NCBI RefSeq assembly: GCF_029168945.1
Contig: NC_083604.1
Location: 70,076,211 to 70,140,210 of the forward strand
Length of the DNA stretch: 64,000 bases
Reading direction: 5' to 3'
DNA from: Cannabis sativa
Taxonomy: Eukaryota; Streptophyta; Magnoliopsida; Rosales; Cannabaceae
The number at the start of each line of letters is the position of its first letter. Position 1 is the first letter of the stretch. The notes below the pieces were generated by a model, which worked only from the letters and a program-made list of their open reading frames with translations, made no database searches and was not told the origin of the DNA. Both the position numbers and the translations under genes were made by a program. Positions 8,898-54,730 of this stretch are shown here, piece after piece.

Positions 8898-9075
8898 GGC
8901 GTCGATTTTGTGCCCATATGTACAAAACACGGATTGGAATCCGTGTACGGCAGGTAGGTCCCACGTTAGAATAGTTATAATTTTTAATTATTTAATTAAG
9001 TTGGCAACCGGTTATTCTAGGTTTGGTAACCGGTTGTACATTTGTATTTTTAATTAAAAAATAAAAAGGTACAAT
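8898..9075. repeat. Left terminal inverted repeat of the giant MULE
   Basis: It is homologous, in inverted orientation, to about 29500-29677. Two AACCGGTT palindromes (9006 and 9028) lie in it; the right end keeps one. Confidence 0.75.
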
Positions 9076-9232
9076 TTAATTACTGTTCACGTCAGTTAAA
9101 GTAAAAAAAAGTACAACAGCTTTACTGTTCGTGGCAGTTAATTGTACAAATATACTGTAGGCAGTGGGTCCATGTTGTCGGAGTGAGGTTATTTTGGTAT
9201 TTTACATCATGTATGTAATTTTGGAATTGTAG

Positions 9233-9366
9233 TTGAGTACAAAATATCACGTACCGAGTACATTAATTGTTTATGCATGCTGTTTAGTAAAATTAGTGTA
9301 CAAAATATCACGTACCGAGTACAAAATATCATGTACAGAGTACATTCATTTTTGTTTCGTAGTACA
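9233..9366. repeat. Short subterminal repeat rich in GTAC
   Basis: The unit GTACAAAATATCACGTACC occurs three times in a little over 100 bp, with small variations, and each is bounded by GAGTAC or GTGTAC. Subterminal repeats of this kind are typical binding sites of transposon-encoded proteins; that role is inference here. Confidence 0.65.
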
Positions 9367-9669
9367 TTGTTAAGAATAATTTGTTATAAATTATGAAATT
9401 ATGTGTTGGTATATATTGAGTTTTACGTTGGTGTATTATTTTTATTTTTATTATTGTGTATAAAAAAAAATTCATTACTATGGAAATTTTGACCTTATAA
9501 GATTGAATTTTCTTGGGTAAAATAATTTATTTGTTCATTAATTATAAATTTGAGATTTGTTGAGATAAATACCTTAAACACGGCAAACATAACATGAAGT
9601 ATATAAATGTAGAGTTTTTGAAGCAATAACTAGAGTCATAAACCTTAAAACATCAACGGTTAAAAATAG

Positions 9670-11991
9670 CTAGTTATATATATGAATGACCATAGTATGA
9701 TTCTTGTGTGGAGGAAGGCGGTTCAGGGAAATACGCGTTGGAGTGTTCATTGAATGAGTCAGTTGTTGGTTGATTGTGTGCTGACTGTTGCCCCTGAGAT
9801 CCGATTCTCGTTGACGGTTTGGGCACCGCCGATAATCATGGCCTGATGAGCGACAAATGCGACAATGTCTTGAGTTTCTTGGGATCTGCTCCCCGTTCGG
9901 TCCTTCCCTTGGATTTCCCGTACCCTTTGTTCTCACAACTTCAGGGTCTTTAATAATGTTGGGGTTGTTACGATATCTTCCAGGTTGTGGCGTCTGTCCT
10001 TCTGGATTGGAACTCATCTCAAATTCTTCCTTGAACATTAGAGTTAGCCGTTCAATCTCTTCCTTTGCACGCGTGTACGAATCCTCTGTTTTTGCTGCAT
10101 AGAAAGTCAAGTTATAAGTTAATGAGCTGAGAGATCCAAACCTAGCCATCTCATAAATGTGTTGTTGTTCTTGTGCCGGGGGGTTAAAATGTAGGTGGAG
10201 ATTTGTCTTCGCGGATTTGCTCCATCGCTTCATGAGAAGAGTATTAGGTATTCTTCTGATGTTTAATCTTTTCATTGTAGCCCATAAATGTCTACAAGGG
10301 TACCCCTGACTTTCATATAGCATGCAGCTACAGTGTAGTGCTCGTTGGCCTTCACAGTAATGAACTCGGTATCGGACTTCCGGATGCTAAAACTTTCCAA
10401 TGGTGTATATCTGCCACTCTCCTTCTTGCTCCTGACTTATGACAAAATAATTATTCTCTAAATCAAGTTGCTCAGCAACCTTGTGGTACATAGTTCTTGT
10501 GTAGAATTCAACACATTGGTTGTAGTACGTGGTCAAGCATGTAGGATTAGGTGGGTGAGGTCGAGTGCATCTGCTTTTGAAGTCATTTGCAGTCTCGTTG
10601 TGTCTGAGCTTTGAGACTGTCATATCTATGGTTGTTACAAATTCACGCAAGCAATAATTCTTCTCTAAAAATTTTTTTAGGGCTGAGTTGATCGATTCGC
10701 AACGTTGTGTGGTTCTCATTCCTGCAACGAATGAACCCCTTAAATAAGTTTCTGCTCACTGTTTTCTTGTGTCGAATGTTGTTTGGTACCATTCATTATC
10801 TGTTAGTTGTTGGGTTTCGACGACGTCTAACCATCTTGCTTCAAAATCCTCCTCCTCGTAGTAGTTGTACATTAGATCTTTAAATCTTTTCAAGAAGATC
10901 GGATCTTTAACCTTTTTGGAAGCATTTGTATTGAGATGCCAAGCACATAGACGGTGTGTAACATCAGGCATGTGTTCCATGATGGCCTGTTTCATGGCCA
11001 CATCTTGGTCGCAGACTACAACATTTGGCTTCTTATCTCCATGGCATTCGAGAAATTTTTGAAGTAGCCAACGATAGGATGGAAGCTTCTCGTGGAGGAG
11101 GAGAGCGAACCCGAAGATGCATGTGTTGAAATGGTGGTTTACGCCAATGAGAACAGTGAGAGGCTTATTGTACTCATTTGTCATGTAGGTGGTATCAAAC
11201 CCTAGTACATCCCCAAAAGCCACATAGTCGACACGTGAGTTTCCATCTGCCCAAAATAAGTTAGCCAATCGATTCTCCTCGTCCACCTGATATACAACGA
11301 AGAAATTTGGATCCCTCTCTGCGAGACAATCAAGAAATCCCAACGCTCCTTCCGAGTCCGTCTCTATCTTTTCTTCTCGCTTGGCACCAGCAACCCTGTT
11401 GTAGACATCTCGAAGTTGACATGGCATTCTCTCGTAACCTCCACTTTGCAAAGCAACATGAGACATTATGTTGGCAGTTTTAATTCCAACTGAGTTCATC
11501 GACCTAACTTGGGCAAGCAAGCCATCGGACACTACTCGGTATGATCTCAAAAATTGTACCTCACTTGATGAAGCGAGGTCGTGATTGTGTATTGTGCTGA
11601 ACTCTTTGCATTTCCAAGTGTTAGACGGTTGTGTGAGTAAAATATGTAATGCTGCCTGACATCCGGTTCTAGTGACATCATGAGGTCTCTTTTTTCTTTG
11701 TCTTTCCGTTATTGTGATTCTTTTGTAACCCTCGGAACAACAAACCCACCTGCGCATTACGATGACTCCGTGAGAACGTCGTACATCATCTTTTCTTGTG
11801 CGGAAACCCATCCGTTTCGCATACATTTCGTAGAATGCTTCCCATTTTCCCAGTTTGTCGAGACTCTTGCCTAGGACGTCACATATTTGAATCTCATTCA
11901 CTGGTTTTGTGATGTTTAGCTCTGCTGTTATGCTTTCCCATTCGTAGGTTTGTTCCTCATTCATGTTCTCTGCTTGAGACTCGGCCTCCAT
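9670..11991 (-). pseudogene. FAR1/mudrA-like MULE transposase with two nonsense codons
   Basis: One frame runs from the ATG at 11991 to a stop at 9670 (773 codons), interrupted only by TGA at 10758-10756 (codon 412, where the family has Trp) and TAG at 10389-10387 (codon 535). Domains in order: a FAR1-type WRKY-GCM1 zinc-finger DNA-binding region (about 50-139, ending HNHDL); the MULE DDE core with Asp266 in FDTTY and Asp328/Asp330 in VVCDQD; RLCAWHL (347-353); a TTQRCESINS block after codon 425; a SWIM zinc finger (Cys554, Cys556, Cys566, His568); and a C-terminal CX2CX4HX4C zinc knuckle (710-723). The protein would cut and join the element ends in the nucleus. Both stops are single C-to-T or G-to-A changes and there is no frameshift, so inactivation looks recent. 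Stop readthrough cannot be excluded but is unlikely. Confidence 0.9.
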
Positions 11992-11998
11992 ATTGTAT

Positions 11999-12079
11999 CT
12001 GTTTGAATTAACAAATTAAATGATAAAGTTAATAGGTAAGGAATGGTTTTCGAGAAAGATAAAAAGAAAAGGACTTACT
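11999..12079 (-). other. Probable 5' UTR intron of the transposase gene
   Basis: On the minus strand a GTAAGT donor (12079) and a CAAACAG acceptor (11999) bracket 81 AT-rich bp. They lie just before the sequence leading into the transposase ATG. Confidence 0.5.
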
Positions 12080-12239
12080 GATAAGTAACCAATTGTTCCT
12101 TCGACGTTAATGTACTGGAGTGGAGTTACAGTGTTCGATTGTTATTGATATCCAAGAATTAGAGATGAAGAGTAAGGGAAAGATAGTGGTGAGTCGATTT
12201 AAATTAGATTTTATGAGATTGAATGCATCAGATTGTAGA
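12080..12239 (-). promoter_or_regulatory. Upstream region of the transposase gene
   Basis: A probable first exon and promoter. A TTTAAAT element lies near 12197-12203 on the minus strand, about 120 bp above the putative 5' UTR intron. No stronger TATA box is seen. Confidence 0.3.
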
Positions 12240-12770
12240 GTAATATGGGTTGGTGATCACATTTAAGTGTGTTGGGCTGATATTAATGGGCCTTTGAAAT
12301 ATTGGAAACTCTATTCCACTGTCTTCGTACTTTTGAACAGTAAAATAGTACAATTACATTTACTTTTGAATAAATTAATTGGAAAATAAGGTTATTGTAT
12401 GATTTTTGGGTTTAGAAATTTTGTTGAGTTGTATGGGTTGGTGGTAACATTTAAAATTGTTGGGCTTATATGAATGGGCCTTTACCAACCTTTTTTAATG
12501 AATTAAACCACTTCGTACGTCAGGAAAAAAGTAATAGTACATTTTTTTATTTGTAGAAAATAAAGATTGAAAAGTAAGGATGTTTTTTTTTTTTTTTGTA
12601 TGAAGTGATGACATTTTTTAGTAGAATGGGTAGTTTCTCCCATTTATATATGTTGGGCATTTATATATGTTGGGCTGATATTAATGGGCCATTCACCTAC
12701 ATCTTCTTATGAATTAAACCGTCGTTGTACGTTAGAACAGTACCGTAGTACATTAGGTTTTTTGGGAAAA
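12240..12770. repeat. Three diverged tandem copies of a unit of about 200 bp
   Basis: The order GGGTTGGTG, ACATTTAA, TTGGGCT-ATATTAATGGGCC, GAATTAAACC and AGTACATT recurs three times, with GGGCC blocks near 12290, 12480 and 12690. The copies differ by many substitutions and short indels, so the amplification is old. Confidence 0.7.
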
Positions 12771-12948
12771 CGGGATTGATGAATAATGTTGACATTTGAC
12801 CATACTACGTACGCCTACACGTGTATTTAACTATGTAATTCAGAAATTTAACTACCCCTCTTTCGACACATCAGATGTGCCCAATAAAGTACATCCCAAT
12901 AGAGTACAGCTAACTAAAAAACGTACTATAGGGTTATTCTCCACGACT

Positions 12949-12955
12949 TATATAA
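12949..12955 (+). promoter_or_regulatory. TATA box of the RNase H1-N-like gene
   Basis: TATATAA followed by CACAC lies 86 bp upstream of the ATG at 13041, in the correct orientation. Confidence 0.6.
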
Positions 12956-13040
12956 CACACTTGAGACGTTTTCCAATCCAGCATCAAGTTTATAGAGAAA
13001 TTAACTTGTAATTTAGTTATTTGCTATACATATATCAAGT

Positions 13041-13478
13041 ATGAGTTCAGGTCCACACTGGGTTATTTTCAATGGACCAAATGAAGGTATCTATAGTAGG
13101 TACGAAGACGCTGTAAGCAAAAACACTACTTCTGATGCGTCCATAAAAATAATTCGTTATGAATCTTTCATAGAAGCTTTCTCTGCTTTATGTCTACATG
13201 GAGAGACGGGACAATGCTTCAATGGGCAGCAAGTTAGAGAACTTTGCTGTGTTAATGAGTTTCCCTGCATGTGGGATTCTGATGATGATAATGATGAAGA
13301 GGCTATCCTTAATTCTGTTTGCTCACTGTTTGATGAGGGTGAATGCTCTGGTGCAAATAAATCACCCGAACAGGACAATGTGAAAGATTCGACTGACAAA
13401 GGTGAGGACCGAAATGGAGATGATATAGAAGTTGGGGACAAAGGAGGAGTGGATACTTCTCCAAAAAACAGTAAATGA
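13041..13478 (+). CDS. Small acidic protein with Cauli_VI/RNase H1 N-terminal-like domain
   Basis: An intact 145-codon frame starts at an ATG with a well-placed TATA box. Residues about 6-53 fit the pattern of the Cauli_VI/RNase H1 N-terminal hybrid-binding domain: an aromatic-hydrophobic strand (HWVIFNGP), the signature GIYSRYEDA, then a YESFIEAF block. The rest is acidic and low in complexity (SDDDNDEEA near 80-88; D, E, G, K and S rich to the end), with several cysteines at 53-76. No RNase H catalytic domain follows, so the protein would at most bind RNA-DNA hybrid or dsRNA. It lies inside the MULE between the transposase and a divergent CxxC protein and has no stop or frameshift. The domain call rests on a short pattern read by eye, and the role in transposition is unknown. 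Confidence 0.65.
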   Translation: MSSGPHWVIFNGPNEGIYSRYEDAVSKNTTSDASIKIIRYESFIEAFSALCLHGETGQCFNGQQVRELCCVNEFPCMWDSDDDNDEEAILNSVCSLFDEGECSGANKSPEQDNVKDSTDKGEDRNGDDIEVGDKGGVDTSPKNSK

Positions 13479-13842
13479 TGCACTGTGTTAGTGTCCAAGT
13501 TATGTTATTTTATATTTTGATGCTATAATGTACTATCAGTATTTGTTATGAAATCTGTACTTTGGTTTATTTTGGAGTATTAATGTCTCTGTTCTGAATT
13601 AATTAATTGTGGAATTAAAAGTGAAGTGAATCATTGTGAAATCACAACTGCAAACAGAAAGAAAATAGACTTAAAATAATATAGTAGAGTTACATACAAC
13701 TATATATATAATGGAGGTAAGTTCTTCAATCTCATTAAATGGCCTAACAAAAAGTTGATAGAACGGCCATATGAGATGAGTTGTAACAAAAGTACACTAT
13801 ATATATATATATAAAATACCACGATTGAAACCGAACGGATGT
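13479..13842. other. Intergenic spacer between convergent small genes
   Basis: An AT-rich 364-bp spacer. It should hold the 3' ends of both flanking genes: TTATTTTATATTTTG-type U-rich sequence after 13500 and an (AT)n run at 13798-13814. No other feature is seen. Confidence 0.5.
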
Positions 13843-14325
13843 TCAATCAAGTTCTATAACTTGAGGGAACTTCCGTTGAGACGGAGGGCTATTGTCTCTG
13901 AACGGGGACTTTGGTCGTGAAGGACTTTCTCTTGGAGTAGTGTTTGGTGATTCTTGTTTTACATGAAGTGGGTAGTGGGGTATGGACACCTCGGTGTAGT
14001 CGAGAATGTCATCCATGATACCCTCTAATTTTTCTCTTGAAATGTTGGCTTCTTGCATGGCGTGGGCTGAATGGTACAGGTGTTCCGCCAGTTTGTACGA
14101 CTCCTGCTTGGCCTCCGTGGCTCGTAAATGAGCCTTCCTTATAAGTTTTTCGTGTTCGTGGAGAACAGACTCGAGCCTTGCACAGTTAGGACATCCTGAC
14201 ATGGAGGCTGAACGGAGTCTTGGACTCCGTGACGGTGTACCTACGGGTCTTGTGGAAGAAAAAGGATGCGGTGGGGATTTTGGAGGACTTGTTTCAAAAG
14301 GGTTGAAGTTTTGGTAAGGGTCCAT
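13843..14325 (-). CDS. 160-aa CxxC/coiled-coil protein of unknown function
   Basis: An intact single-exon frame with a TATATAA box 66 bp upstream. The N-terminal third (1-42) is Pro/Ser/Arg-rich (SPPKSPPHP, SRSPRLRS). Residues 45-48 form CPNC, followed by a charged helix (about 49-106) with heptad-like leucines that probably forms a coiled coil. The C-terminal 50 residues are again Ser/Pro/Arg-rich with SP motifs. I do not recognise a named family. The Ser/Pro/Arg tails resemble in composition the C-terminus encoded by the last exon of the Ulp1 gene in the same element, which could mark both as nuclear or phosphorylated, but that is speculation. The gene looks functional: good start context, no interruption, higher GC than its flanks. 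Confidence 0.65.
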   Translation of the reverse strand: MDPYQNFNPFETSPPKSPPHPFSSTRPVGTPSRSPRLRSASMSGCPNCARLESVLHEHEKLIRKAHLRATEAKQESYKLAEHLYHSAHAMQEANISREKLEGIMDDILDYTEVSIPHYPLHVKQESPNTTPRESPSRPKSPFRDNSPPSQRKFPQVIELD

Positions 14326-14390
14326 TTGATTTAGGAAATAGTAAAACGGGGTTTCAAAAAAATGCTTAGTTTGTATAACCTAACCTTTAC

Positions 14391-14397
14391 TTATATA
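14391..14397 (-). promoter_or_regulatory. TATA box of the CxxC/coiled-coil gene
   Basis: On the minus strand this reads CACTATATAAGT, 66 bp upstream of the start codon. Confidence 0.6.
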
Positions 14398-15789: not shown

Positions 15790-16644
15790 TGATTTGACTA
15801 GACTGTACAACCTATCAATGAAGATGACTTTGTCAATGCATTGGAAAAAGGCATTTGGAAAACCCAACCAAATGGTGATGTGAGTTCAAATTTCAAATGA
15901 AATAATATTTAAAAATAATAATTAATAATTTCGAAGGTATTACTAATTACTTGATAGTAATTATATGTCATTATTTTACTAATTTTGTACCATTAATCTG
16001 TATAAGGTCACAACAGTAGGGTGTACGATCTACTTTGAAAACCCTAGCTCATCCACTTATTTTATTATGGAATTATTTTTTAAAATCTGACATTGCAAGT
16101 GTTGTTCATAACTTATTGGAAATAGTGAAACTCAATGGCACATATTCGGTCAACATAGTTCCATTCCAAATAAAATTTAAGTTTACAGTTACAAAGACAT
16201 ACACAATAGAACAGAATTTGTACATAATATAGTTCTATCCCAAAATAAATTTAATTACGATGTTTTTTACACTGAAAATATAGGTTGTATTGAGATATAC
16301 TATAATATCGGTACCGTTATCACATGATGCTTTATCTGACTCAAGACTTTAGTTTTCCACCCCGCGTGTCGATTTTGGTCCAGTGTTTGGCGCACCGACG
16401 GCTGTATCAAATATGATAACACTCATCCGTCGATGGCCTTGTGGACTGCGGGAGGTTGGGTGAGGTTCGGTTGGATGGGATATTTGGCGGCGTCTCAAGT
16501 AGTTCCGTCCAGCCTAATCTACCCATCCGAACCCTTCGTCAACATTACCTGAATATACATGTAGTACGTACATAAAATTTCTAAGAATCAATTTGTAATA
16601 ATATACTATTGAAATAAATAGACAAAAATAGTTGAGTTATTACC

Positions 16645-16892
16645 CAGATTTATTATGAGATGATTGATTGAATTGCTGAAATTTCCTTAATGCATCTACA
16701 ACACACGATTTTAGTGCATACCAATCCTTCTGTTTACACATCTTCACTTCGGTGCAACAACAATACATAATTTATTTTTTCATATATTATCCCTACACAT
16801 ATGTCTACAGGAAGGGAGTGAGTTCTCTAGGAAAGAGAACAATACTAAATTGAGGTGTGAAGGAGTAAGGACAGGTAGAGGGGTATATATAG
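16645..16892 (-). pseudogene. Promoter and first exon of an unidentified gene, copy 1
   Basis: The minus strand has a TATATATA box (16884-16891), then an ATG at 16741-16739. About 32 codons follow (starting MCKQKDWYALKSCVV), then a GTAATA donor near 16645. The probable second exon (16330-16550) meets stops in every frame I tried. I do not recognise the protein. It is homologous to the copy 1.76 kb to the right. Confidence 0.4.
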
Positions 16893-18409
16893 TACTTGTG
16901 GATGTGATTGTGTTGTGTAGTCTTTCAAAAATTAAAAAAAAAATAATTAATACAAACTGGTACGGCTAAAGATGGGGTGATATGACACCAATACAAACCT
17001 GATTTTGTCAATGCATTGAAAATCGTTAGTTCAACATACCCAACCAACTAATAAATTTTCCTTGAAAGACGTAATTTGAACCAACCTATTGACCGGTTTT
17101 GTTATGGTTTGGTTCAGTTTGTACGTGTAAGAAATTAGTACAATTTGTGAGAAAAATAATTGTTATTAGTTTGTATTGGAATACTAATTTCCAATAATGA
17201 GTTGACATGTGTAGGATGTATTACCTTCTTTAATAAAATAAAAAATATTTATTTATATATACAAACCTTTGAAGTCAATATGAATGAAAATAATGTTTTA
17301 ATTTAAATATACATTTTGAATTTTGACTGGGTTAATATCAATGAAACTTAATTTTTGTCTTATGTTAATAAAATCTCCTACAGTACATATGATGTGACAT
17401 ATAACTATGTAAAACTCAGCCAAGTACGTTTTCTTAATAAAATAATAATTTCAACACTTAAAGTAAACAACAAATCCTTCAAAACCCTAAAAAACGATTT
17501 TAAATAAATGAGGAAGACCTTTTTTGTATTTTAAAATAATAAACATTTTAATAATATTTTCCCATCACTCCATATACGGTCAAATCAGTAGGTTGTACTA
17601 TCCACTTGAATAACCTAAAATAAAAATTACGTAGAAATCTGTTATTACTATAATTAAATTATTTAACTAATTCTGTTCTTAATAAAATTACAGAATTTAT
17701 TAAAAAGAAAATCAAGTAATATAGTACTATTTATTTTTTTGATCTAAGTCAAATATTGTATGTATATTTTTTAGTACAGTTTTCTTAAAAAAAATGATTT
17801 TAATAATTAATTAATATCTCATTGATTGGGACAAGATACCGTAAAATACGGTTGTTTAATTTTTGGTATTGTTTATTAGTGGATTTAATATAAACCAGTT
17901 AACCATGTACATCTTCAGATTGAGCGTCAAATAAAAATAAAAGACAAATTATGCAACCAATTAATTATCATAATTATTTTAGTACGTAAATTGATTAATT
18001 ATCATTATTATTTGATACTGTAAACATACATTGTATTGAGACGAATTTGTACATATACTATAACATCGGGACTCTTATTACATGAGGAAGCAATTTGACC
18101 TAAGACTGTAAAAAACGCTGACATTTGCCTCCCGCATATCTTTTCTTCAAGGGTCTGGCGCACCGTTGTGTCAAATATTATAACACTCATTCCTCGGTGG
18201 CCTTGTCCACTCGGGAGGTTAAGGTTCGGTAGGATGACATATCTGGGTGGCCGTTTTGGAAGTAGTTCCCTCCACCCTACTCCACCCATCCCAAACCTTC
18301 GTCAACATTTCCTGAATATACATGTACCACATACATAAAATTTTTAAGAAACAATTTGTAATAATATACTATTGAAATAAATAGACATAAAGAGTTGAGT
18401 TATTACCAA

Positions 18410-18645
18410 AATTTGTTATGAGATGATTGATTGAATTGCTGAAATTCCCTTGATGCACCTACAACACACGGTTGCAGTGCATACCAATCCTTCTGTTTAC
18501 ACATCTTCACTTTGGTGCAACAACAATACATAATTTATTTTTTTAATATATTATACACACGTCTACATATAGGGAGTAAGTTGTCTAGGATAGAAAACAA
18601 TACGAAATTGTGAAGGAGTAAGGAGAGGTAGAGGGGTATATATAG
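18410..18645 (-). pseudogene. Promoter and first exon of an unidentified gene, copy 2
   Basis: Arranged as in copy 1: TATATATA at 18637-18644, then an ATG at 18504-18502 with the same opening residues (MCKQKDWYAL). The downstream second-exon block has a 93-codon open stretch (18008-18289) in one frame, but this frame is not shared by copy 1, so it is not supported as coding. Confidence 0.4.
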
Positions 18646-19214
18646 TACTTGTGGATGTGATTGTTGAGTGTAGTCTTGACAAAAATTTAAAAATAATAAT
18701 TAATATAACCCTAGGTACGGCTACAAATAACCTAAAGCTATTTATTTGACTTTTTCAATCCCTTGAAAAACGTAATATCAACAAACCCAACCCCCTACTA
18801 ACTTTTCCTTGGAAGACGTAATTCGAACCAATATGCATGCTCGGTTTTGTTCTGAATTGGTTCACTGTGGTAAACAAAAATTATGTATTTAAATAAGGTA
18901 AATGTTGTTCCCATTGTTATCACATGTAGCAACAAATATCCTAATATTATGTCCAAATAAACATGTGTGGCCAGACGAATAAGAAATTAAATTAGGATGT
19001 TTACTAATAATGAAAACTCAATATTTTTTTAAATACGATTTTAATATTTCATTAAAATATTATTCGTTGGAATAAATATTGCAATAATTTTTGTAAGATT
19101 ACATTAACGTATTAATCGTTGGAATCAAGATTACAATAATTTTTTGAATACTATATAAATATAGATATTTAATAACAAAACCGTTTAATGTTATGAATAC
19201 AATAGTAGTTTAAG

Positions 19215-21456
19215 ACAAGAAGTGACTCTAGTAATAAAGTCAGGAGAATAGTGAATCCGGTACGCTTCATGATGAACTGAGTACACACTCAGCCCAAACA
19301 ACCTAAATTCATAGTGCGACTTCTGCCATACTGCATCGGTGTCACTCTGTACAACCCTAAGTCGAACTTGATTCGGTGAGTTCATTAGAAGAGGAGTGAC
19401 TCCGGTACCCAACAACAAACTTCACTACATACTGTGTCACCACGCCCGTAAACACCGCGAGTGACAGCGTCAGTACTACGAATGGTTGACTGTCGCGCCG
19501 TACAAACCTAGCTCGAACTGGATTCGGTGAGTTTGTTAGGAGGATAGTGACTCCGGTACACCAAAGCTAACTTGACTACATACTCTGTGTCACAGGGTCC
19601 GTAAACACCGCAAGTGACAGCGTCAGTACTACGAATGGTTGAGTGTCACTCCGTACAACCCTAGGTCGAACTGGATTCAGTGAGTTCGTTAGGAGGATAG
19701 TGACTCCGGTACACCAAAGCTAACTTGACTACATACTCTGTGTCACCTTAACCAAAAAACACCGCTTGTAACAGTGTGAGTGCTATGAACGGTTGACTGC
19801 CGCTCATTAGAACCCTAGCCCCAGAGGATGTTCAGTGAGTTCGTCATGAGGATAGTGACTCCGGTACACGAATGGTGACATGAGTACTTACTGTTTGTCA
19901 CATTAACCAAAAACACCACCAGTAACAGTGTGAGTGCTATGAACGGTTGACTGCCGCTCATTAGAACCCTAGCCCGAGAGGATGTTCAGTGAGTTCATCG
20001 TGAGAATAGTGACTCCGGTACACGAATGGTGACATGAGTACTTACTGTGTGTCACATTAACCAAAAAAACACCACCAGTAACAGTGTGAGTGCTATGAAC
20101 GGTTGACTGCCGCTCATTAGAACCCTAGCCCGAGAGGATGTTGAGTGAGTTCGTCATGAGGATAGTGACTCCGGTACACGAATGGTGACATGAGTACTTA
20201 CTGTGTGTCACATTAACCAAAAAACACCACCAGTAACAGTGTGAGTGCTATGAACGGTTGACTGCCGCTCATTAGAACCCTAGCCCGAGAGGATGTTGAG
20301 TGAGTTCGTCATGAGGATAGTGACTCCGGTACACGAATGGTGACATGAGTACTTACTGTGTGTCACATTAACCAAAAAACACCACCAGTAACAGTGTGAG
20401 TGCTATGAACGGTTGACTGCCGCTCATTAGAACCCTAGCCCGAGAGGATGTTCAGTGAGTTCATCGTGAGGATAGTGACTCCGGTACACGAATGGTGACA
20501 TGAGTACTTACTGTGTGTCACATTAACCAAAAAACACCCCCAGTAACAGTGTGAGTGCTATGAACGGTTGACTGCCGCTCATTAGAACCCTAGCCCGAGA
20601 GGATGTTGAGTGAGTTCGTCATGAGGATAGTGACTCCGGTACACGAATGGTGACATGAGTACTTACTGTGTGTCACATTAACCAAAAAACACCACCAGTA
20701 ACAGTGTCAGTGCTATGAACGGTTGACTGCCGCTCAGTAGAACCCTAGCCCGAGAGGATGTTCAATGAGTTCGTGATGAGGATAGTGACTCCGGTACACG
20801 AATGGTGACATGAGTACTTACTGTGTGTCACATTAACCAAAAAACACCACCAGTACTAGTGTGAGTGCTATGAACGGTTGACTGCCGCTCATTAGAACCC
20901 TAGCCCGAGAGGATGTTGAGTGAGTTCGTCATGAGGATAGTGACTCCGGTACACGAATGGTGACATGAGTACTTACTGTGTGTCACATTAACCAAAAAAC
21001 ACCACCAGTAACAGTGTGAGTGCTATGAACGGTTGACTGCCGCTCATTAGAACCCTAGCCCGAGAGGATGTTGAGTGAGTTCGTCATGAGGATAGTGACT
21101 CCGGTACACGAATGGTGACATGAGTACTTACTGTGTGTCACATTAACCAAAAAACACCACCAGTAACAGTGTGAGTGCTATGAACGGTTGACTGCCGCTC
21201 ATTAGAACCCTAGCCCGAGAGGATGTTCAGTGAGTTCATCGTGAGGATAGTGACTCCGGTACACGAATGGTGACACGAGTACTTACTGTGTGTCACATTA
21301 ACCAAAAAACACCACCAGTAACAGTGTGAGTGCTATGAACGGTTGACTGCCGCTCAGTAGAACCCTAGCCCGAGAGGATGTTCAATGAGTTCGTGATGAG
21401 GATAGTGACTCTGCTACACCAATGCTAACCTGAGTACTTACTGTGTGTCAGAGATA
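19215..21456. repeat. 155-bp satellite array inside the MULE, about 14 copies
   Basis: The word TGCTATGAAC recurs at 19781, 19935, 20091, 20246, 20401, 20556, 20711, 20866, 21021, 21176 and 21331. Spacings are 154, 156 and then 155 throughout. Three or four more diverged copies precede them (TACTACGAAT at 19474 and 19627), and the last copy decays near 21430. The central monomers are nearly identical. Each contains AATAGTGACTCC or GATAGTGACTCC, GGTGACATGAG, TGTGTCACATTA and AGTAACAGTG, that is, several GTGAC/GTCAC words in both orientations. It is non-coding. Confidence 0.95.
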
Positions 21457-22290
21457 CTGATAGTAACAGGATGTTCATTGTTACCATAACGAACCCCCCG
21501 TGAAAAATTGTAAATTTTTAAAAAATATTCCAACATGTAATTTTCGGCTTCACGATTGAGACTATGATAGAAACAGGATGTTCACTGTAGACAACACTAA
21601 TTTTTTTTATATAATAATTATATAATATAAAAAAAACTAAATAATTATAAAGAAATATTAATCAAGACTTTTATAAATGTATTTGTTTGTATTTTTATAT
21701 TTTTAAGTGTGGTAATAATATATTCGGGTGTTTGCAGTGTGGGTAGTGTAGTTTTTAACCTTTTTTTTTTAACCAATCCATACATGCGGTTTTTCCAATT
21801 TCTCAAACCGCACTCGCACCGCGAAACTAAAAATCGCAGAACTCGCACTGCGGAAAATGGTGCGATGCGGTACAGTTTTTTCGATTTGGACTATTACCAA
21901 TAATTAAACTATCACAAATACAACAAAACTTGAGCAACATTTGTCAAAAATTAAATTTCAATCAAAGTAAATAAAAATATTTAATGTTTACTAATATTAT
22001 TTAATGGATTTAACAAATATTTAGTATTCAAATATGGGACGTACACTGTTCACTCGATGGACCTTGTCAATTCACACAACACTAAAATATTATTTTAAAA
22101 GAAAGGACTGCTTGTGACATGACATGATACGCTTCCCAACGAAACAATCAGCCATGCCCTATTATGTTGTACGAATTAGGTTTTGAAATTGGGGTTTATT
22201 TTGGCACCAAGATTGATCAAGTTAAAGGTGAATGTTAGAAAATTTTAAAAAAATATTCATTTTCCCACCACTAACTCATTTGGAACAGCC
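21457..22290. other. Non-coding MULE interior with a GC-rich palindromic patch
   Basis: The AT-rich spacer contains, at about 21720-21890, complementary words such as TGCGGTTTTTCC, AACCGCACTCGCACCGC and GGTGCGATGCGGTA. These resemble the subterminal GTGCGGT repeats of plant hAT elements, so a small old insertion is possible. Its ends and target duplication were not resolved. Confidence 0.35.
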
Positions 22291-22300
22291 TATATATAAA
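22291..22300 (+). promoter_or_regulatory. TATA box of the GRF zinc-finger gene
   Basis: TATATATAAA lies 98-107 bp upstream of the ATG at 22398 and is followed by a C-rich leader. Confidence 0.65.
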
Positions 22301-22397
22301 CAGGTGCCCCCTTTCCTTGTGAGTAACACACATTATCTCCACCATAGTTAGAACAAAAAAAAAATTTGTACACCTCACAAATTATAGTACATCGAAC

Positions 22398-22866
22398 ATG
22401 GTGGCTGGTGGTGGAGAAGACTCATGCGGGTTCGATGGGGGTGGTCCGCCTTGGAGAAATTCACTTCAGGGACACCCCCATTGCTACTGTGGTGATCTAG
22501 CTTATGTTTGGACTTCTAGTAGTAGAGCAAATCCTGGTCGTCGATTCTTCGGATGTCCACACTATGTAAGAGTTTTGTCTTTTTAGATTCAAAAGTACTT
22601 CTCATTTATGTTTTCTGTACTTAGGCAGCCATGATAAACTAATAGGGTTATTTTCAACTCAGGAGAACGATGAAAGTCGAGGATGTGATTACTTTTGTTG
22701 GATCGATAAATCACATGTTAAGAGAAGTACAGATGCTACACCTGGATTGCGAAACCAAATCAAGATTTTGGAAGAAGATAAGAAACGCAATGAGAATGTT
22801 ATTAGAAAATTAATTTTTATCATTTTTATTTGCCTTTTCATCATTGTCCAACTTATATTGCGTTAA
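22398..22866 (+). CDS. GRF-type zinc-finger protein with C-terminal membrane anchor (two exons)
   Basis: The exons are 22398-22565 and 22663-22866, joined across a 97-bp GTAAG...CAACTCAG intron in phase 0. The product is 123 aa. Residues 29-72 form a GRF zinc finger: CYCGDLAYVW, then TSSSRANPGRRFFGCP, then GCDYFCWID across the splice. It keeps all four metal-binding cysteines and the GRFF-like signature. A charged helix (about 80-103) follows, then a hydrophobic segment (about 104-122, IFIIFICLFIIVQLIL) that should anchor the protein in a membrane, leaving the finger in the cytosol or nucleoplasm. GRF fingers bind single-stranded nucleic acid in topoisomerase, APE2 and NEIL3 proteins. Membrane-anchored mini-GRF proteins are common in plant genomes and often lie near transposons. 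It has a TATA box and an intact frame and sits convergent to the Ulp1 gene. Confidence 0.85.
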
Positions 22867-23823
22867 AGATATGGGTTGTCGCAAAATGCAAATGTTTTGT
22901 ATATCTTATGTTCTCAAAACTTGTTTAACTTAATTGTGTAGAACTTAATAGATGCGTGTGGATGATGACGAAAATTACATTTGGTATGAAGTACCCACTA
23001 CGTTCTCAAAATTATATGTTTTCTACATTTCTAATTTCTGTAGCAAATTTCCTCAATGGGTTCAATGTGAAGTTGCAAAATTATATGTTATTCACATCTT
23101 TGTATTTGTTATGTGAAGTAGCGCAATGAGAATGTTCTATATTCCATATTTTTCCTCATTACTATGTTATGAAAAACCAAATTTAAGGGGGCTATTGTCT
23201 ATTTACATTTGGTTAAAGTAATGGGAGTTGATATGGTATGGTTTCAATCTTTTTTTTTAATATGTTCTCAAAACTCAGTTTAAAGTTGAATGAGTACAAA
23301 GATTTGGTAACTAACATCAAACAATTAACAAGTCACCTTTGTCGTTATTTGTAATGTTATAGTACATGTGTTTTGAAAATTCGGTTTAAAGTTTAATGAC
23401 TACAAAGATTTGGTAAGATTAGGCAAGTAACATGATTTCCTTCAAATAATTAAGAAGAAGTCACCTCTTAACCAAAAAAACAAATAAAGAAAATTAAGAA
23501 GTCACCTTTGTTTTCGGGTTAAATAATTTCTGTGAAGTACAATCAACTACTTCTGAAGTATGGGTACATTGTAAGAGTTGTTATGGTGTGAGTACAAAGA
23601 TTTGCTAAGTATGGTTTAATATATTCTCAAAACTAAAATAATCACAAGTCTGTGAACATAATAACCAGTTCCAAACGTCAACTAATAAAAACAGATGTCT
23701 AAATCCAAATGCTCCCAAATCCAAACTAAACAACACACAAATAACACAACCTATGCTCCCAAATCCAAACTACACAACACACTAATAACACAACCTATTA
23801 ATAACACAAGTGTTTTTTACACA
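22867..23823. other. Spacer between convergent GRF and Ulp1 genes
   Basis: About 950 bp without coding content. Short internal repeats occur, such as TACAAAGATTTGGTAA (near 23300 and 23402) and CTCCCAAATCCAAACTA (near 23711 and 23756). It should hold the 3' UTRs of both genes. Confidence 0.5.
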
Positions 23824-26800
23824 CTATTCACCATATGAAATCTTAGTCTTGCTAGACTGAAACCTAGGGGAGGCTCTTGACGGGGGAAACATGTTTGCAT
23901 TGCGAGACTTCGCTGTACTGAACCGAGGATCGCGTGGAGACTTTGACGGACTACGCAAAGGGGCCGAGGATGATGCAAATGAGCTGCCTTGTGCAGCCCT
24001 ACGATCTTCAACCACTTTGGTACGAATTTCATTTTGTTCATCAGTTATGATCCTCGCAGCGATTTCCAAACGTGCCTCAACCGGGTGAAACTGTGCCACA
24101 ATATAGAAACAAAAACAAAAACTTAGAAAATGTAATTAACTCTAATCAACTTCACAGTAAAACACCGAATAAAATTTAAATTACACAACGTTAATCTCAA
24201 TCAAACTTGCGTAGTACATTCTGAAATAACTAAACAGTGGTATACCTCATCAACTACTTCTTCCTCATTGGCCACAGCCTCCATGTACTTCATGACGTAT
24301 ACACCGCAATCTCGGTCATTGTCTTGTTGAGGAAGCCCGCGATCTTTCCTGTCAATTCTGAAATCCACGAAAGTCACATTCTTCGACATATTCTCCTCAA
24401 ACAAAAGGTCTAACGTCGACAACTGCAAACGTATACAATTAGTTAGATTCAATGAAGAATGAGTTCACATCAAACAATGAAACTTTGCAAGTTTACCATT
24501 TCTTTCGTAGCCTCCACACGATACTTCTCATGCATTGCGGTGTGTAGGGAGTCCAGAAATGAGACAACATTGGACTTCATATTTACTTCGGCACCAAACC
24601 AATGTGGTGCACCTTCTAGAGTCAACACCGGCACAAACATCTACAATTGAATAGAGGAACAATAAAGTCAAAAATAAATTGAAATTACAGACCATATAGA
24701 TATTCGACACTACAATGACCAATATGCATCGCTAACATATCTCAGTTTTCAAAATTACAATTAAGAACGACCATGTGTATATGATGAAGTACCTTGACGC
24801 ATTTTTCCAAGTTGTCTTCGTAAAACAGTTTTGACCACTCCCGGTCTTTCGCAATCCTCTTCACATTAAACGAACCGAGAGTTTTTTGCTGCAAAAGCAT
24901 TGTTCATCTTGTCAAGTAACAGAAATTACAACCAAACTGAATTACAAAATTTAAAATAAGTTGTACAGCAAAGTAATTACCGAGATGCGAGTGGGCATGT
25001 ACCAAACACGAGGTTGGTCAGGTAATCGACTATCACGTTCGTACTTGTTCATTAGTATAGAAAAACAGTCAATGATCTGCAACAAAATGAAATATGATTT
25101 ACACATGTACAATAAATGATACATATTTAGTTAATACTTTGACACTTATGGATCCCTCAACTTCTCGCAACGGTCGCAACGATGCCATGCACCTCCTATC
25201 CACTTCAAACTTTCGAAATTTCGCAAGCACATATCTGATTCAATTGTAATCAATCTAACTGTTATTAAAAATTTCCACAAGTATATCATAATGAGAAATA
25301 CGAAAATAACATTTACTTACCCCGGATCTAATGTGTTGCTAAAAATAAACTTGTAAAACCCATATTGGTTACGGGGGATCGCTTCTTTCGTCTTGAAAGG
25401 CCCGACAACAGTTCTGCCCGACTCAATAAATTGCTCGTACGCCTTATCGTTGAAGTCATCCTCAATTAAAGGCACATTCTCCGACTGTGTCTTCTTTGAT
25501 TTGACGAGGGCTTTGCCTTTATTCCAGAAAGATGCCACTTCGACTATATCAAAGTCCTCATCGTCGAAGGTCTTATGTGCAGCACCTTCATCTTCAACAG
25601 ATTTTGTAACAGATAGTGAAGGCGTACTTACAGATTCCACCACATTTTCGTCGGATAGACCAACAACATTAGTCTTTGAACGGACAGGGGACTTCAACGG
25701 GGACTCCTCCACGGCCTGGCTGCACTCCGCCTTCTTCCCCGTTTCCGCAGCAGCATCCTCCTCCAACTCTCGGTCAATACCACTTACACCTTCTCCTTTG
25801 TCCATAAATTTCAAAGAAAATGATCTCAACTGAGACTTTAACTCATTGGAGAAGTACTCCTTCAACTCGTTGATAGAGCTGACAAAGTGGTCACTGCTCT
25901 TTCTTCCTTCCGAGTCGGAGTAGTAGTTGGGCAGTATTACGGGATTCGAAGTGAGCGTTATCTGTTAAACATAACAAATTTAACAAATTTAATTTTTCAA
26001 ACCCAAAATAATTAATATCAACTGAAATCACATTACCACATTATAACCAAAATTTGATGTACCTTGTCGCTGTTGGGACCCCCATTGTCTTTCACAAATT
26101 TGTAAGCGGACTTACATTGTTTACTACCCCAAAAATCAACGGGGAGCACTGTTCGGTCGACATATCCAAAGTTCCACTCCACGTGAGTCAAGTACACCAA
26201 CTGTCATAAACAAACAATGTATTAGTAATACATTCGACTAATAAATCACAATATTATATTATAAACTGAATAAACACATTTACATAAATGAAAGATAACA
26301 AAATCAATGTACCTGGAGGAATAAGGTGCAGCCAGACACATTCTTCGTGGCCTTATTTCGGAATCTGAAAATTGAGTTCATCAGATACCTGAACCCCGCA
26401 GTTGCCCAGTTCTTGTGGCGAATGTCCCTGGTAACCCTAAGGGAGTGCAAGTATCCCGAAGTGATATCGCAGCCCATTTTCGACGCAAGGATTGTCCCTA
26501 TGACCACCAAAGAAAATTTAATCAGAAATAGGTTGTCTGCCTCAACGCACTCCAACAAAGATTTCTCCAACCCTGTCAAGGACATGGTGTACTCGACAAC
26601 GTTCAATATCTCCTCCAGATATCGAGTGTCACTATCACCCTCGGTGACTACAGGATCCCCTCCGTCGTCCACCCCCATAACATCTCCGAACATCGCGGCA
26701 GATAAGTGAATTTTCCTCCCATACAAATCCAGTATGCTAGTGGTTGGGTCAACATGTTTGATTAACCAACTCACTAGTCGGGTGTCAACGTATGGTGCAT

Positions 26801-27480
26801 CCTCTCTGATGAATGATCCAAATCCAGCATTTTGGATCACATCTTTCTGCTCCAGGTTCAGGTTCTTGCAAATCCTGATTAAACGGTTGAAGGAGCATCG
26901 ACCGTACACAGATGCTTCTTCACTTTCAGGAGCACCCTCTTCCTCATCCACCTCCACTTTCTTCCCCTTGGCATCAGCTGCCTTTGGTTTCCTCCCCCTT
27001 GTTTGCACCGCCTTCTTAGCGGGATTAGGGTTAGGGTCATAGCTTCTCCACTCAGACTTCTCCTCGTCGGTGAAACCTTTATATTGCACTTTCAATTTGT
27101 CGGTAGCCTGTAATATGAGGCAAACTTACATCAACTACAGAGTACATGGAAAGAATCTTAAAGTATGTCAAACAATTACGATGAATTACGGACAATTGAC
27201 ATAAAAAAAATTGAGTAACAGTCGACATCAAACCTCTTTCTCAGTTAATCCCTTCTCAGCTGCTCGAAGGGCTTTGTAGTTCGCATTGCTACATGTGGAC
27301 ATAATTTCAATCAAATATATAATAAAATAAATGTTAAACATCATTCACACGAGTAAACAACTATCCATCATTCAAAACTTACAAGAAATTTCTCCAAGCA
27401 ACCGCATTATCGTTCGGCTTGGGGGTGACATCCTTCTTTACGGGTTCAATTCCCGCTTTCCTTTTGCGTTTCCCAGCCAT
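23824..27480 (-). CDS. Ulp1-type (C48) cysteine protease of a MULE, 11 exons, intact
   Basis: Exons: 27480-27383, 27288-27234, 27107-26313, 26200-26063, 25961-25321, 25234-25138, 25076-24981, 24888-24793, 24640-24497, 24422-24246, 24090-23824. All introns are GT-AG, all phases agree, and the product is 867 aa. Residues 1-110 are basic. About 120-320 form a helical domain of the kind found upstream of Ulp1 in plant MULEs (GFGSFI, WLIKHVD, MGVDDGG). About 363-590 are an acidic, low-complexity linker. The protease is at about 600-780, with His685 in the PHW motif, Asp702 in FLDSL, Gln753 in PQQDND and Cys759 in DCGVY, so the triad and the oxyanion glutamine are present. Ulp1 enzymes remove SUMO or process its precursor in the nucleus; the real substrate of transposon copies is unknown. 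The tail (780-867) is Ser/Pro/Arg-rich. It has no stop or frameshift, unlike the transposase in the same element. Confidence 0.88.
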
Positions 27481-27491
27481 GTATGATGAAC

Positions 27492-29133
27492 CTAACCAAA
27501 TTAAAGATAAACAAATTTAAACGTTAAGGACTACATATTTCAGCAAATACACTATATAAAAATAAATAATTGACCAAAACACAATGAAAATCGTGCATTG
27601 TAATCACCTAAAATCACATCAAATCAACTTAACAATTCGACATTGAAAAAATTCAGATTTCAAACACACATTTCATGCTTCTTGCATGTTACACATTAAA
27701 GTACATTAAAATGATGTGAAACTCTTTTCAACTAAATGATTTCCACAACCAAAACAATGAACAAAACAACACTTAACTACTAACTCCCATAACTAAAAAG
27801 TGGTACAAACGAGTTGGTACAATCCGTGAGAACCAAGAACATAAAGCACACACATGAATAGACAAAATTCCCCCAAACTTAACCAATCTGGGTACCTTGT
27901 ACCTCTTAATTCATAATGAACAGAGTACAAAACCAGTTGGAAAACATTTAATATCAGAATTAACAAAACAATGCTTCACTACTAACTGTCATAACCAATT
28001 TCAATAACTTCTCCAATAATTCATATACACAAAAAATCCAAACTGCCATAGTTTTTATCAATAGTGTATCTCATTAACTCATGAATCTTGTGTCTAAACC
28101 ATCCAATTTTTCAAAACAAATTCATAACAATAGTAAAATCCAAACTACAACTTCTAATTAAAGTACAACAATCACTCACAACAGATAACAAAAAACATCA
28201 CATTTGGTAAGTAACAATCTGAACTAAAAAATTTAAGACCATAGTTTCTTTACCTAACTCAACACATGACAGTCATCACCATTCCATTGTTTTCCTTACT
28301 TTCAAAATTTTTTTTTGGGTCAATATAGGGCACCCCACGGTAAAACATTTGGGTAAAAAAAATACACACCAAAATGACCAAACACGTGAATCCAAAACAC
28401 TTTCACAATAAAATTACCAAATTACCAAACAAAATTGATTTTCAAAAATAATTATTTTCCAGCAACACTATACATACCAATGTTTACATTGCTTTTCTTT
28501 CTTTCATTACATTCTTTTCTTAAAATTGTTTCACTGTATTAGGATTGTTAATCCTTCTGTTCATGATTCAAGAATCATGGCAGTGACAATGGTGAAAACA
28601 GAGAACGAAATCCAATCTTCAATAACTGAATATATTGACTATTATTGCATATATTCAGAGTACAATAGAAGAGTACTTTATATATTCATTACACACCATA
28701 ACCAAAAAAAATTAAATGCAATCTTCACTAACTGAAAAATAACAACCACTTACAGTGATGAACAATCTCTAACAGACTCTGAACAAAGACCCCTAATACA
28801 CAGGGAATAAATTAATCCAAAACACTTTCACAATAAAAAAAACAAACAAAAACTGTACACACATGTAACTTCGATTTTCACCACTCTCAGAATAAAAATC
28901 TTGTTCACGAAGCAGATTTAAAGCATGTAGAAAAGATTAAAATTACTCAATAAACAAAAAATGGAACACAAAAACAAAATAAAATGCACATACACGGTTG
29001 AAGAACAACACTTCTCTTTACAAAAAGTTTAAATCTTTCTTTAACAATGTTAGACAATTTTTCACATCCCCAAACTAAAGAACGAACAAACATGTAAAAG
29101 AAGAATAAAGTTGGTACATTCGGAGAAACTTAC
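27492..29133 (-). other. Probable 1.6-kb 5' UTR intron of the Ulp1 gene
   Basis: A strong donor (ACAA-GTAAGT at 29133) and a TTTGGTTAG acceptor ending at 27492, 11 bp before the ATG, suggest a leader exon at about 29134-29230 and one long intron. The stretch itself is AT-rich with no coding frame. Confidence 0.45.
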
Positions 29134-29244
29134 TTGTACATCGAGGTCGAAGACGGAGAACCAGAAAACGAAGTACAGTAACTCCGAACGTACTGCTGTT
29201 TCCTCCCCAAATTTGAAAATAATTTTAATCACTACAATAAAATG

Positions 29245-29391
29245 TGAAGAAGAAGAAGAATGAACTGTGAAGAAGAAGAAGAAGGAAATGTGAAGAAGAA
29301 GAAGAAGAAGAAGAAGAAGAAGAAGAAGGAGGAAATGTGAAGAAGAAGAAGAAGAAGAAGAAGAACGAAATGTGAAGAAGTGTGAAGAAGA
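29245..29391. repeat. (GAA)n microsatellite cluster
   Basis: Several GAA runs are separated by AATGTGAAGAA or AACTGTGAAGAA units. The longest run, of about ten GAA, is near 29295-29325. It lies just upstream of the putative Ulp1 leader exon, so it may be part of its promoter. Confidence 0.85.
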
Positions 29392-29499
29392 ACCAAATGT
29401 GCCCTAAATACCCCACGAACCCACTATTTAGTGACTTTTCAAAATTGGTAACTGTCACCCGTACATCAAACGTCACACGTCAATCGTCAATCGGTGTCA

Positions 29500-29677
29500 A
29501 TTTTTTAAAAATTAATTAATTTAAAATACAAAAAACCAACCGGTTACCATTTTTCCCCCTCTAAATACCCCTACTTTAACCCCAGCCATTAGATCATGCC
29601 CCAATTCAATCCAACGGCTACAGTACAATCACAGATTGTATTCCCTGTTTTGGCATAACGGGACCAAATCCTGTCCC
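29500..29677. repeat. Right terminal inverted repeat of the giant MULE
   Basis: On the minus strand it starts GGGACAGGATTTGGTCCCG. It mirrors 8898-9075, including GGTAACCGGTTGG 129 bp in from the end. Confidence 0.75.

Positions 29678-50277: not shown

Positions 50278-54730
<4,453 letters not shown>

Follow-up and report, generated by a model that had tools for sequence, protein, structure and literature searches.

A 20.8-kb Mutator-like element of Cannabis sativa with a predicted Jittery-type transposase, an Ulp1 gene and a GTAC-rich satellite

Organisation of the locus

The window analysed here, a 64-kb stretch of Cannabis sativa DNA, contains a very large Mutator-like element (MULE) with a transposase frame, genes for RNase H1-N-like, CxxC, GRF zinc-finger and Ulp1 proteins, a satellite array and a diverged duplication (Table 1). 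The perfect 10-bp duplications that bound it had been recognised in a first-pass annotation; the window has exactly two occurrences of the repeated sequence, TATATAAGTA, each abutting the element. The terminal repeats, described there as mirrored, are present but imperfect. They agree at 37 of 54 aligned columns, a level equalled by 11 of 20,000 random 60-bp window pairs, and the inverted similarity of the 300-bp ends scores 84, compared with a 95% point of 63 and a maximum of 97 for 500 random pairs. We conclude that the element has terminal inverted repeats, which are weak, short and imperfect. The mirrored GGTAACCGGTTG block is also found as annotated; its core, AACCGGTT, has three sites in the 64 kb, at 9006, at 9028 and, inverted, at 29538. 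All eight left ends examined have this core, as do 24 of the 27 right ends (three of 30 loci misfit the tip pattern and were left out). The left tip reads GGCGTC in the window copy; every other left end read has GGCAGC, apart from one with GCCAGC.

Table 1. Features of the element and their positions in the window
Feature	Position	Strand	Remarks
Whole element	8898..29677	+	20,780 bp; similarity to other copies stops at both ends
Left target-site duplication copy, 10 bp, TATATAAGTA	8888..8897	.	Sequence match
Right target-site duplication copy, 10 bp, TATATAAGTA	29678..29687	.	Sequence match
Left terminal inverted repeat, imperfect	8904..8953	+	Inverted alignment
Two subterminal GG(C/T)AACCGGTT blocks	9003..9036	+	Core search
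Transposase frame, FAR1 + MULE + SWIM	9670..11991	-	Pfam; two in-frame stops in window copy
RNase H1-N-like acidic protein (plausible only), 145 aa	13041..13478	+	Weak fold match to RNase H1 hybrid-binding domain
CxxC coiled-coil (by eye), SP-rich orphan protein, 160 aa	13843..14325	-
Diverged duplication, ~0.8 kb, first unit	16264..17121	-
Diverged duplication, ~0.8 kb, second unit	18051..18864	-
155-bp satellite array, 12.9 copies, 28 GTAC sites	19450..21450	+
GRF zinc-finger protein, C-terminal hydrophobic segment, 123 aa	22398..22867	+	2 exons (22398-22565, 22663-22867)
Ulp1 (Peptidase_C48) protein, 867 aa	23823..27480	-	11 exons in model; Pfam; open in window copy
Mirrored GGTAACCGGTTG block	29537..29548	-	Mirrored core
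Right terminal inverted repeat, imperfect	29618..29670	-	Element tip ...CCTGTCCC at 29677

The two duplication units cross-match at ~82% (BLAST, window against copy), and inspection of frames in the 16.3-18.9 kb duplications gave only short possible spliced frames.

Copies in the Cannabis genome

A search with the element ends, as the first-pass annotation had proposed, finds left and right ends together at many unrelated sites, and the copies examined have 10-bp duplications of their own. Insertions assigning the two ends to different elements, which the annotation had named as a refutation, were not seen among them. Of the 40 listed left ends, 27 have a similarly oriented right end listed no more than 45 kb away, and the end-to-end spacing is 19-24 kb for 20 of these 27 pairs. 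Duplications are perfect in eight of 11 copies examined and match at 9/10, 8/10 and 8/10 positions in the others; two perfect duplications fall within (TA)n, where they carry less information, and two at unrelated sites are identical 10-mers. The insertion targets are TA-rich 10-bp sites.

Comparisons among copies define the same unit. Identity to six other copies breaks off at both element ends, and in eight copies, the window copy included, similarity ends at two shared boundaries, with pi of.008-.10 within the element and.55-.56 in the flanks. Their common order is ends, transposase, RNase H1-N-like, CxxC, satellite, GRF and Ulp1. An element end adjoins 39 of 40 listed GRF matches and, among the matches listed, 20 of 20 satellite loci; the satellite is found only inside the element in those matches. 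The expectation that the genes and satellite travel together is borne out for GRF, CxxC and the satellite, which accompany the ends, but in one of the eight copies the GRF gene is missing and little of the Ulp1 gene is left. A 16-kb derivative keeps the satellite, although its RNase H1-N-like and CxxC genes and the greater part of its transposase are gone. None of the eight copies read has five defect-free genes, as aligned.

Two different elements, nested or abutting, could mimic one, and the short, imperfect terminal inverted repeats would fit such an arrangement, as would the fall in identity from 100 to 86% among listed right ends. The recurrent pairing of left and right ends in the same orientation contradicts this, as do the agreement in content and order of the copies read and their own 10-bp duplications. 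We regard the two-element arrangement as extremely improbable, and a composite was rejected on the strength of paired ends and common order. Given paired ends at many sites, sharp borders, own duplications and a common order, we conclude that 8898-29677 is a single, very large Mutator-like element, as first annotated.

Transposase and class of the element

The predicted transposase has FAR1 (PF03101, 1e-18), MULE (PF10551, E 5.2e-27) and SWIM (PF04434, 4.4e-4) domains in Pfam, and a CCHC-like C-x2-C-x4-H-x4-C motif is seen by eye close to its end. The claim that the element carries a transposase stands with regard to these domains, which score above the Pfam cut-offs, but the two in-frame stops had gone unreported. 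The Jittery subgroup is defined by a transposase with a FAR1 DNA-binding domain and SWIM or CCHC (available part of PMC6446971). These domains are present here, and from its domain content the transposase appears to be Jittery-type rather than VANDAL/Kaonashi. The element also shows traits of the Mutator superfamily, namely the MULE domain, a duplication of ~8-11 bp per copy and terminal inverted repeats. From Pack-MULEs, defined by captured host fragments only and no transposase, the element differs in having a transposase frame. The copies very probably represent a family of multi-gene DNA transposons that belong to the Jittery type of Mutator, with a FAR1 transposase.

The accessory genes

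The Ulp1 protease reported in the first-pass annotation is supported by a Peptidase_C48 domain (PF02902, E 2.5e-14 in Pfam) above cut-off and by the catalytic H, D, Q and C residues, all kept in alignment with SENP5 and yeast Ulp1; the introns of the gene model are GT-AG. DUF1985 and DUF287 were not found in this protein, for which PF02902 is the only Pfam match up to E 10. Because the transposase is apparently of FAR1/Jittery type and DUF1985 was not found, the label 'Kaonashi-like' has to be restricted to the Ulp1 domain.

The GRF protein scores 34.0 bits with Pfam Zn_ribbon_GRF (cut-off 25.9), and with its C-terminal hydrophobic segment it matches its earlier description. Its gene is open in all seven copies that retain it and, in a comparison of segments over eight copies, shows the lowest pi (0.008). 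An older copy (C9) gives 0 synonymous and 3 non-synonymous changes and differences at 4/97 intron sites; this comparison is unusable for constraint, since the GRF region is near-identical there despite the diverged C9 ends.

For the third gene, at 13041, an open frame was correctly annotated and is kept in six of eight copies, but the identity of its product as an RNase H1-N-like protein is plausible only. No Pfam family scores above cut-off, and RNase H1 is not among its matches to sequences of solved structures. Its structural model, a single-sequence prediction of low confidence (pLDDT 51), has the human RNase H1 hybrid-binding domain (3bsu) as third-ranked match, with TMt 0.68, probability 0.60 and E 2.3.

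The CxxC frame is likewise real and is open in all eight copies; the coiled coil is seen by eye. Its four database matches are all from Cannabis and named only as hypothetical proteins. A hand tally finds no stop in 80 of 90 full-length window-like frames, and dN/dS is 0.25 (dS 0.53, Fisher 8.8e-9) and 0.17 in two comparisons; among young copies it is 0.66, with a spectrum-adjusted ratio of 1.18. From the value of 0.25 we infer that the CxxC gene is under purifying selection.

These results bear on whether the extra genes are host passengers, captured as in Pack-MULEs and useless to the element. Transduplication of Ulp1 by MULEs is described as frequent and as having possibly occurred several independent times (available part of PMC2528002), and in 7/7 other copies, as aligned, the Ulp1 gene either carries indels that change the frame or has suffered a large deletion; both are in keeping with passenger status. 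The low dN/dS and largely stop-free frames of CxxC argue against it, as do the consistently open frame and low pi of GRF, and we consider it improbable that the set as a whole is useless. The earlier proposal that the small genes serve the element is supported for CxxC and is weaker for the others.

Satellite array and GTAC motif

The satellite array was annotated correctly. It is present in all eight copies read, with 7 to 18 units, and has the highest pi (0.098), the right terminal region being close behind (0.096). The palindromic tetranucleotide GTAC occurs at 14.0/kb in the array, 8.3/kb in other non-coding DNA of the element, 4.3/kb in coding DNA and 2.2-2.7/kb in the window flanks, and is about threefold denser in the element than in flanking DNA. 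In non-coding DNA outside the array it is the most over-represented of the 256 tetranucleotides, with 104 sites observed against 44 expected from dinucleotides and 60 from trinucleotides. At right ends (n=30), GTAC averages 6.6/kb inside and 2.1/kb outside and is higher inside in 29 of 30. This enrichment, greatest in the left terminal region and satellite, is a new observation here.

Between copies, GTAC is lost at 17/705 sites compared with 142/2,742 for the other permutations free of CpG (Fisher 6e-4), the copies being non-independent; against a diverged copy, its retention relative to other tetramers shows no significant excess, with p 0.27 for sites outside the array and 0.09 for those inside it. 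A claim of constraint on GTAC was rejected on both grounds.

The distribution of GTAC could have another explanation. GTAC is also the core of the sites of SBP/SPL proteins, with CGTAC as the SBP form. The motifs might be sites for the transposase or for such host factors, with a promoter or transposition role and no part in anti-silencing, Ulp1 being independent of them. The density peaks point this way, since the left terminal region (19.4/kb) exceeds the array and the intergenic region between the transposase and RNase H1-N-like genes reaches 11.4/kb. Against it, GTAC reaches at least 5.3/kb in every non-coding segment counted, 100 distinct 14-mer contexts are found among 102 sites, and the CGTAC form accounts for 26 of 104 sites (hand count from six-mers), with no visible preference. 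We rate this explanation as possible, at about one chance in three.

The satellite may also have arisen by incidental tandem expansion and play no part, as its variable unit number and high pi suggest. Against this stand its presence in all copies read and in the 16-kb derivative, and its GTAC content of 1.1 to 2.8 sites in each unit, with values close to 2 for most of nine arrays; the targets of VANC proteins likewise differ in repeat number (PMC5735166). An incidental origin is quite conceivable, if short of an even chance.

Comparison with known systems

A close likeness is to Jittery-like families of melon and grapevine, some of which carry Ulp1 coding sequence, located downstream of the transposase in grapevine, and share great length with the Cannabis element (available part of PMC2528002). 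Jitvine-1 and Jitvine-2 of grapevine measure 11.9 and 14.4 kb; the Cannabis element differs in its 20.8 kb and 10-bp duplication, and GRF, RNase H1-N-like and CxxC genes and a satellite are not described for melon and grapevine in that part of the paper. In its Table 4, Mutavine-1 of grapevine is also very long (17.7 kb), but is grouped with the Mutavine (MuDR-like) families and has no Ulp1 mark. MuTAnT of Medicago, a Jittery-related MULE that inserts into TA microsatellites, shares this relationship and the TA-type targets but has a 4.9-kb autonomous copy with a single ORF and a 9-bp duplication (excerpt of PMC4486113). Abermu of barley resembles the Cannabis element in its several ORFs, including a fast-changing accessory ORF on the opposite strand, but has a MuDR-related transposase, and the word Ulp1 is absent from the paper describing it (PMC9168764). 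No description of the whole gene set was found in the literature searched, which is no proof of absence, and 'GRF zinc finger' was not found in MULE/Mutator/Ulp1 literature among the matches listed.

Kaonashi (KI/KIU) and VANDAL elements with VANC combine an Ulp1 gene with a dense short non-coding motif and variable tandem repeats (excerpts of PMC13317346 and PMC5735166), all of which have counterparts here. The Cannabis element differs from them in its FAR1 transposase, its motif and the lack of detected DUF1985, and its weak terminal inverted similarity departs from their non-TIR state. Published VANC21/VANC6 motifs are rare in it (2, 3 and 0 sites, compared with 3, 3 and 0 in the 43-kb flanks). 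Dense GTAC together with the satellite nevertheless resembles the motif-plus-tandem-repeat targets of the Arabidopsis VANC anti-silencing proteins, and this pattern strengthens the VANC comparison, still as an analogy.

Proposed mechanism and implications

In the mechanism that we propose, the ~20-kb unit would be moved by the transposase, which would bind the subterminal AACCGGTT blocks as well as the terminal repeats, and defective copies, that in the window included, would be mobilised in trans. Accessory proteins, with Ulp1 as first candidate and then GRF or CxxC, might recognise the dense GTAC sites; recognition in the left terminal region and satellite would keep the element's chromatin open, and Ulp1 could desumoylate the transposase or silencing factors. 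That the accessory set counters host silencing is a tentative proposal, which we put at somewhat less than even. Our preferred, though unproven, interpretation is that a Jittery-type element has convergently evolved an anti-silencing system.

To our knowledge, sequence-specific anti-silencing by transposons is known mainly from Arabidopsis VANDAL elements. The strongest form of our interpretation, which we consider rather unlikely as it stands, is a second, independently evolved plant system, in which a Jittery-type MULE would encode several counter-defence proteins (an Ulp1 protease acting on SUMO, a GRF protein with a membrane tail, an RNase H1-N-like protein that binds R-loops and a CxxC adaptor) together with its own GTAC/satellite landing platform. 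The anti-silencing idea can now be tested with a defined motif, an array and a set of candidate genes. The CxxC orphan family, so far hypothetical Cannabis proteins in the matches found, appears to be conserved transposon cargo. If the anti-silencing interpretation is true, its occurrence in a different MULE branch and in a crop host would make motif arrays with accessory proteins a recurrent strategy.

Borders, ends and target sites

Each border of the Mutator-like element (MULE) is directly flanked by the 10-bp word TATATAAGTA, and these two copies are the only ones in the window. Across the genome (770.7 Mb in 18 contigs, the window lying on contig C4) there are at least 41 matches to the left end (203 bp), one of them short and internal (best 40 of 143 candidates scored), and at least 40 to the right end (258 bp; best 40 of 87 candidates scored). 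For 27 of the 40 listed left ends, a listed right end of the same orientation lies no more than 45 kb away, the chance of such pairing being roughly 0.001 per left end. Among the matches listed, the spacing is 19–24 kb in 20 of these 27 pairs, and 42–43 kb, from coordinates, in the longest. The 13 unpaired left ends do not imply single ends, because left and right ends are the best 40 of each.

Target-site duplications are perfect 10-mers in eight of 11 copies, with 9/10, 8/10 and 8/10 identity in the remaining three. In the 27 right ends that fit the tip pattern, the ten bases that follow show the pattern TATATATATA, and TA begins this stretch in 24. Copies C5a and C8a have the target 10-mer TACATTTATA in common, and the flanks of the two sites look different; the identical 10-mer may reflect a preference for particular sequence in addition to TA richness. 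The first-pass annotation had proposed a single element with these borders. The exact 10-bp duplication, the genome-wide pairing of ends and the break in similarity at both borders bear this out, and the search with both ends for further copies that it suggested recovered paired ends elsewhere, with 10-bp duplications in the copies examined.

Features of the element and its surroundings in the window
Feature	Position	Strand	Basis
Mutator-like element	8898-29677
Transposase gene	9670-11991	-	Pfam
Putative RNase H1-N-like gene	13041-13478	+
CxxC gene	13843-14325	-
Two ~0.8-kb units	16264-17121, 18051-18864
155-bp satellite array	19450-21450
GRF gene	22398-22867	+	Pfam
Ulp1 gene	23823-27480	-	Pfam
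Tandem array, period 155-157	32602-33037
Copia-like retrotransposon polyprotein pieces, several frames	43380-47006	-	ORFs by eye
ORF like start of plastid peroxiredoxin-like gene	54233-54787	-	By eye
Gypsy-like gag-pol frames	59661-63815	+	By eye

Copies and their variation

Seven further copies were read whole, plus one 16-kb derivative on contig C9. Six of the seven, aligned to the window, are alike through nearly all segments, with similarity dropping to background level immediately beyond 8898 and 29677; the BLAST match of the seventh spans 8883–29681. Over eight copies, pi is 0.008–0.10 within the element and 0.55–0.56 in the flanks. The C6 copy has lost 20917–26500 and, near 14.8 kb, carries ∼6 kb that has no match. 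Most of 17598–18079 is missing in five of the six aligned copies, being present in the window and C6. Similarity between the two ∼0.8-kb units is about 82%. By eye, both have a TATA-like stretch and, on the minus strand, a short putative spliced frame; they may represent a pair of small genes or a non-coding RNA.

The C9 derivative matches the element at its two ends and in the satellite and GRF. Of the transposase and Ulp1 genes only the edges are matched, and the RNase H1-N-like and CxxC genes have no match. The derivative contains a tandem expansion of a 367-bp unit and two 153/155-bp arrays. Its GRF gene is 98.5% identical, yet the termini of the derivative are much more diverged, which suggests recombination or conversion between subfamilies.

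Whether the parts travel together, a question raised by the first reading, can be answered in the affirmative for GRF, CxxC and the satellite. Among the matches listed, an element end in the right orientation lies beside 39 of 40 GRF matches (best 40 of 137 candidates), 28 of 40 CxxC matches (best 40 of 136) and all 20 satellite loci; the 12 unplaced CxxC matches may belong to copies outside the 40 listed ends. CxxC, GRF and right end are all listed downstream of 16 of the 40 listed left ends. The satellite has at least 446 genome matches (best 40 of 218 candidates scored), about 150 of which were reduced by eye to the 20 loci. Arrays hold 7–18 monomers in the eight copies read, and the array of a C7 copy covers ∼6 kb by listed coordinates. 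The second tandem array of the window has a consensus that looks unrelated to this satellite, and the peroxiredoxin-like ORF continues into a perfect (TC)47 microsatellite.

Genes of the element

The transposase frame contains FAR1, MULE and SWIM domains (Pfam), a combination that a review table (PMC6446971) gives for the Jittery subgroup. Codons 411 and 534 of the frame are stops in the window; in two of eight copies, C6 and C4b, it stays open up to the last three codons. The predicted splice model of Ulp1, with 11 exons, gives 867 residues with a Peptidase_C48 domain (E 2.5e-14) and no other Pfam domain up to E 10, DUF1985 being absent; in alignment, its His, Asp, Gln and Cys coincide with those of SENP5 and yeast Ulp1. 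This frame is open in the window copy, and each of the seven other copies has, as aligned, at least one frame-changing indel or large deletion. The GRF protein has a Zn_ribbon_GRF match (Pfam), then a hydrophobic C-terminus that we read as a putative membrane anchor. The gene set first proposed thus stands for transposase, Ulp1 and GRF by their Pfam domains; the RNase H1-N-like identity of the gene at 13041 is weakly supported.

The small genes had also been taken to serve the element. Their frames are open in 8/8 copies for CxxC, 7/7 retaining it for GRF and 6/8 for RNase H1-N-like. Mean dN/dS over seven young copies (six for GRF and Ulp1) is 0.45 for transposase, 0.49 for Ulp1, 0.31 for GRF, 0.55 for RNase H1-N-like and 0.66 for CxxC (0.72, 0.81, 0.34, 0.63 and 1.18 under a transition- and GC-biased null), values that say little on selection because they include post-insertion decay.

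Deeper comparison upholds the proposal for CxxC, whose four protein matches (79–96% identity) all come from Cannabis sativa and are annotated as hypothetical. Against a copy of the diverged P0004 lineage, dS is 0.53 and dN 0.13, a ratio of 0.25 (Fisher 8.8e-9); against another window-like copy, without its ATG, dN/dS is 0.17 (Fisher 5e-4). P0004 has at least 150 genome matches (best 150 of 189 candidates scored). Among those listed, by hand tally, 102 span at least 155 residues, 83 without a stop; 80 of 90 window-like and one of six P0004-like matches are stop-free. From the clear result of the deeper comparison and the mostly stop-free window-like frames, we infer that selection maintained this orphan protein during the element's multiplication.

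CxxC copies with 180-residue open frames and near-equal scores (e.g. C8:15410801, C5:17608697 and C10:75713091, none among the listed element ends) may be a further, young subfamily; one member read has ATA where the start codon is expected. The CxxC protein contains VKQE, a SUMO-consensus form, and the element also encodes a SUMO-type protease.

A GTAC motif and a possible anti-silencing role

GTAC is the strongest positive outlier of the 256 tetranucleotides in non-coding element DNA outside the array, with 104 observed against 44 (dinucleotides) or 60 (trinucleotides) expected. Its density per kb is 19.4 in the left terminal region, 14.0 in the array, 11.4 between the transposase and RNase H1-N genes, 8.3 in non-coding DNA outside the array, 4.3 in coding DNA, and 2.7 and 2.2 in the window flanks. 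At 30 right-end loci, GTAC occurs 298 times in the 45 kb on the element side and 96 times in the 45 kb beyond the border, and 29 of the loci have the higher density inside. This density does not reflect one copied repeat, since 102 sites have 100 distinct 14-mer contexts.

In Arabidopsis, VANC21 is described as binding YAGTATTAY, and VANC6 targets as containing AGTTGTCC/AGTTGTAC (PMC10398659). Because the arrangement of motif and tandem repeat is as at these targets, the analogy suggests that an element protein may read GTAC. Against this, the published VANC motifs are rare in the element; the Ulp1 protein lacks DUF1985; and GTAC retention in a diverged copy is not significant. An anti-silencing role is the best but unproven reading.

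Classification

We conclude that the element represents a single, genuine multi-copy MULE family, Jittery-type and ∼20 kb long, which carries Ulp1 and one or more orphan genes under selection. It shares Ulp1 with Jittery-like MULEs reported earlier from melon and grapevine (PMC2528002), and Ulp1-bearing elements of this kind are therefore already known; as far as the literature searched shows, the full set is new.
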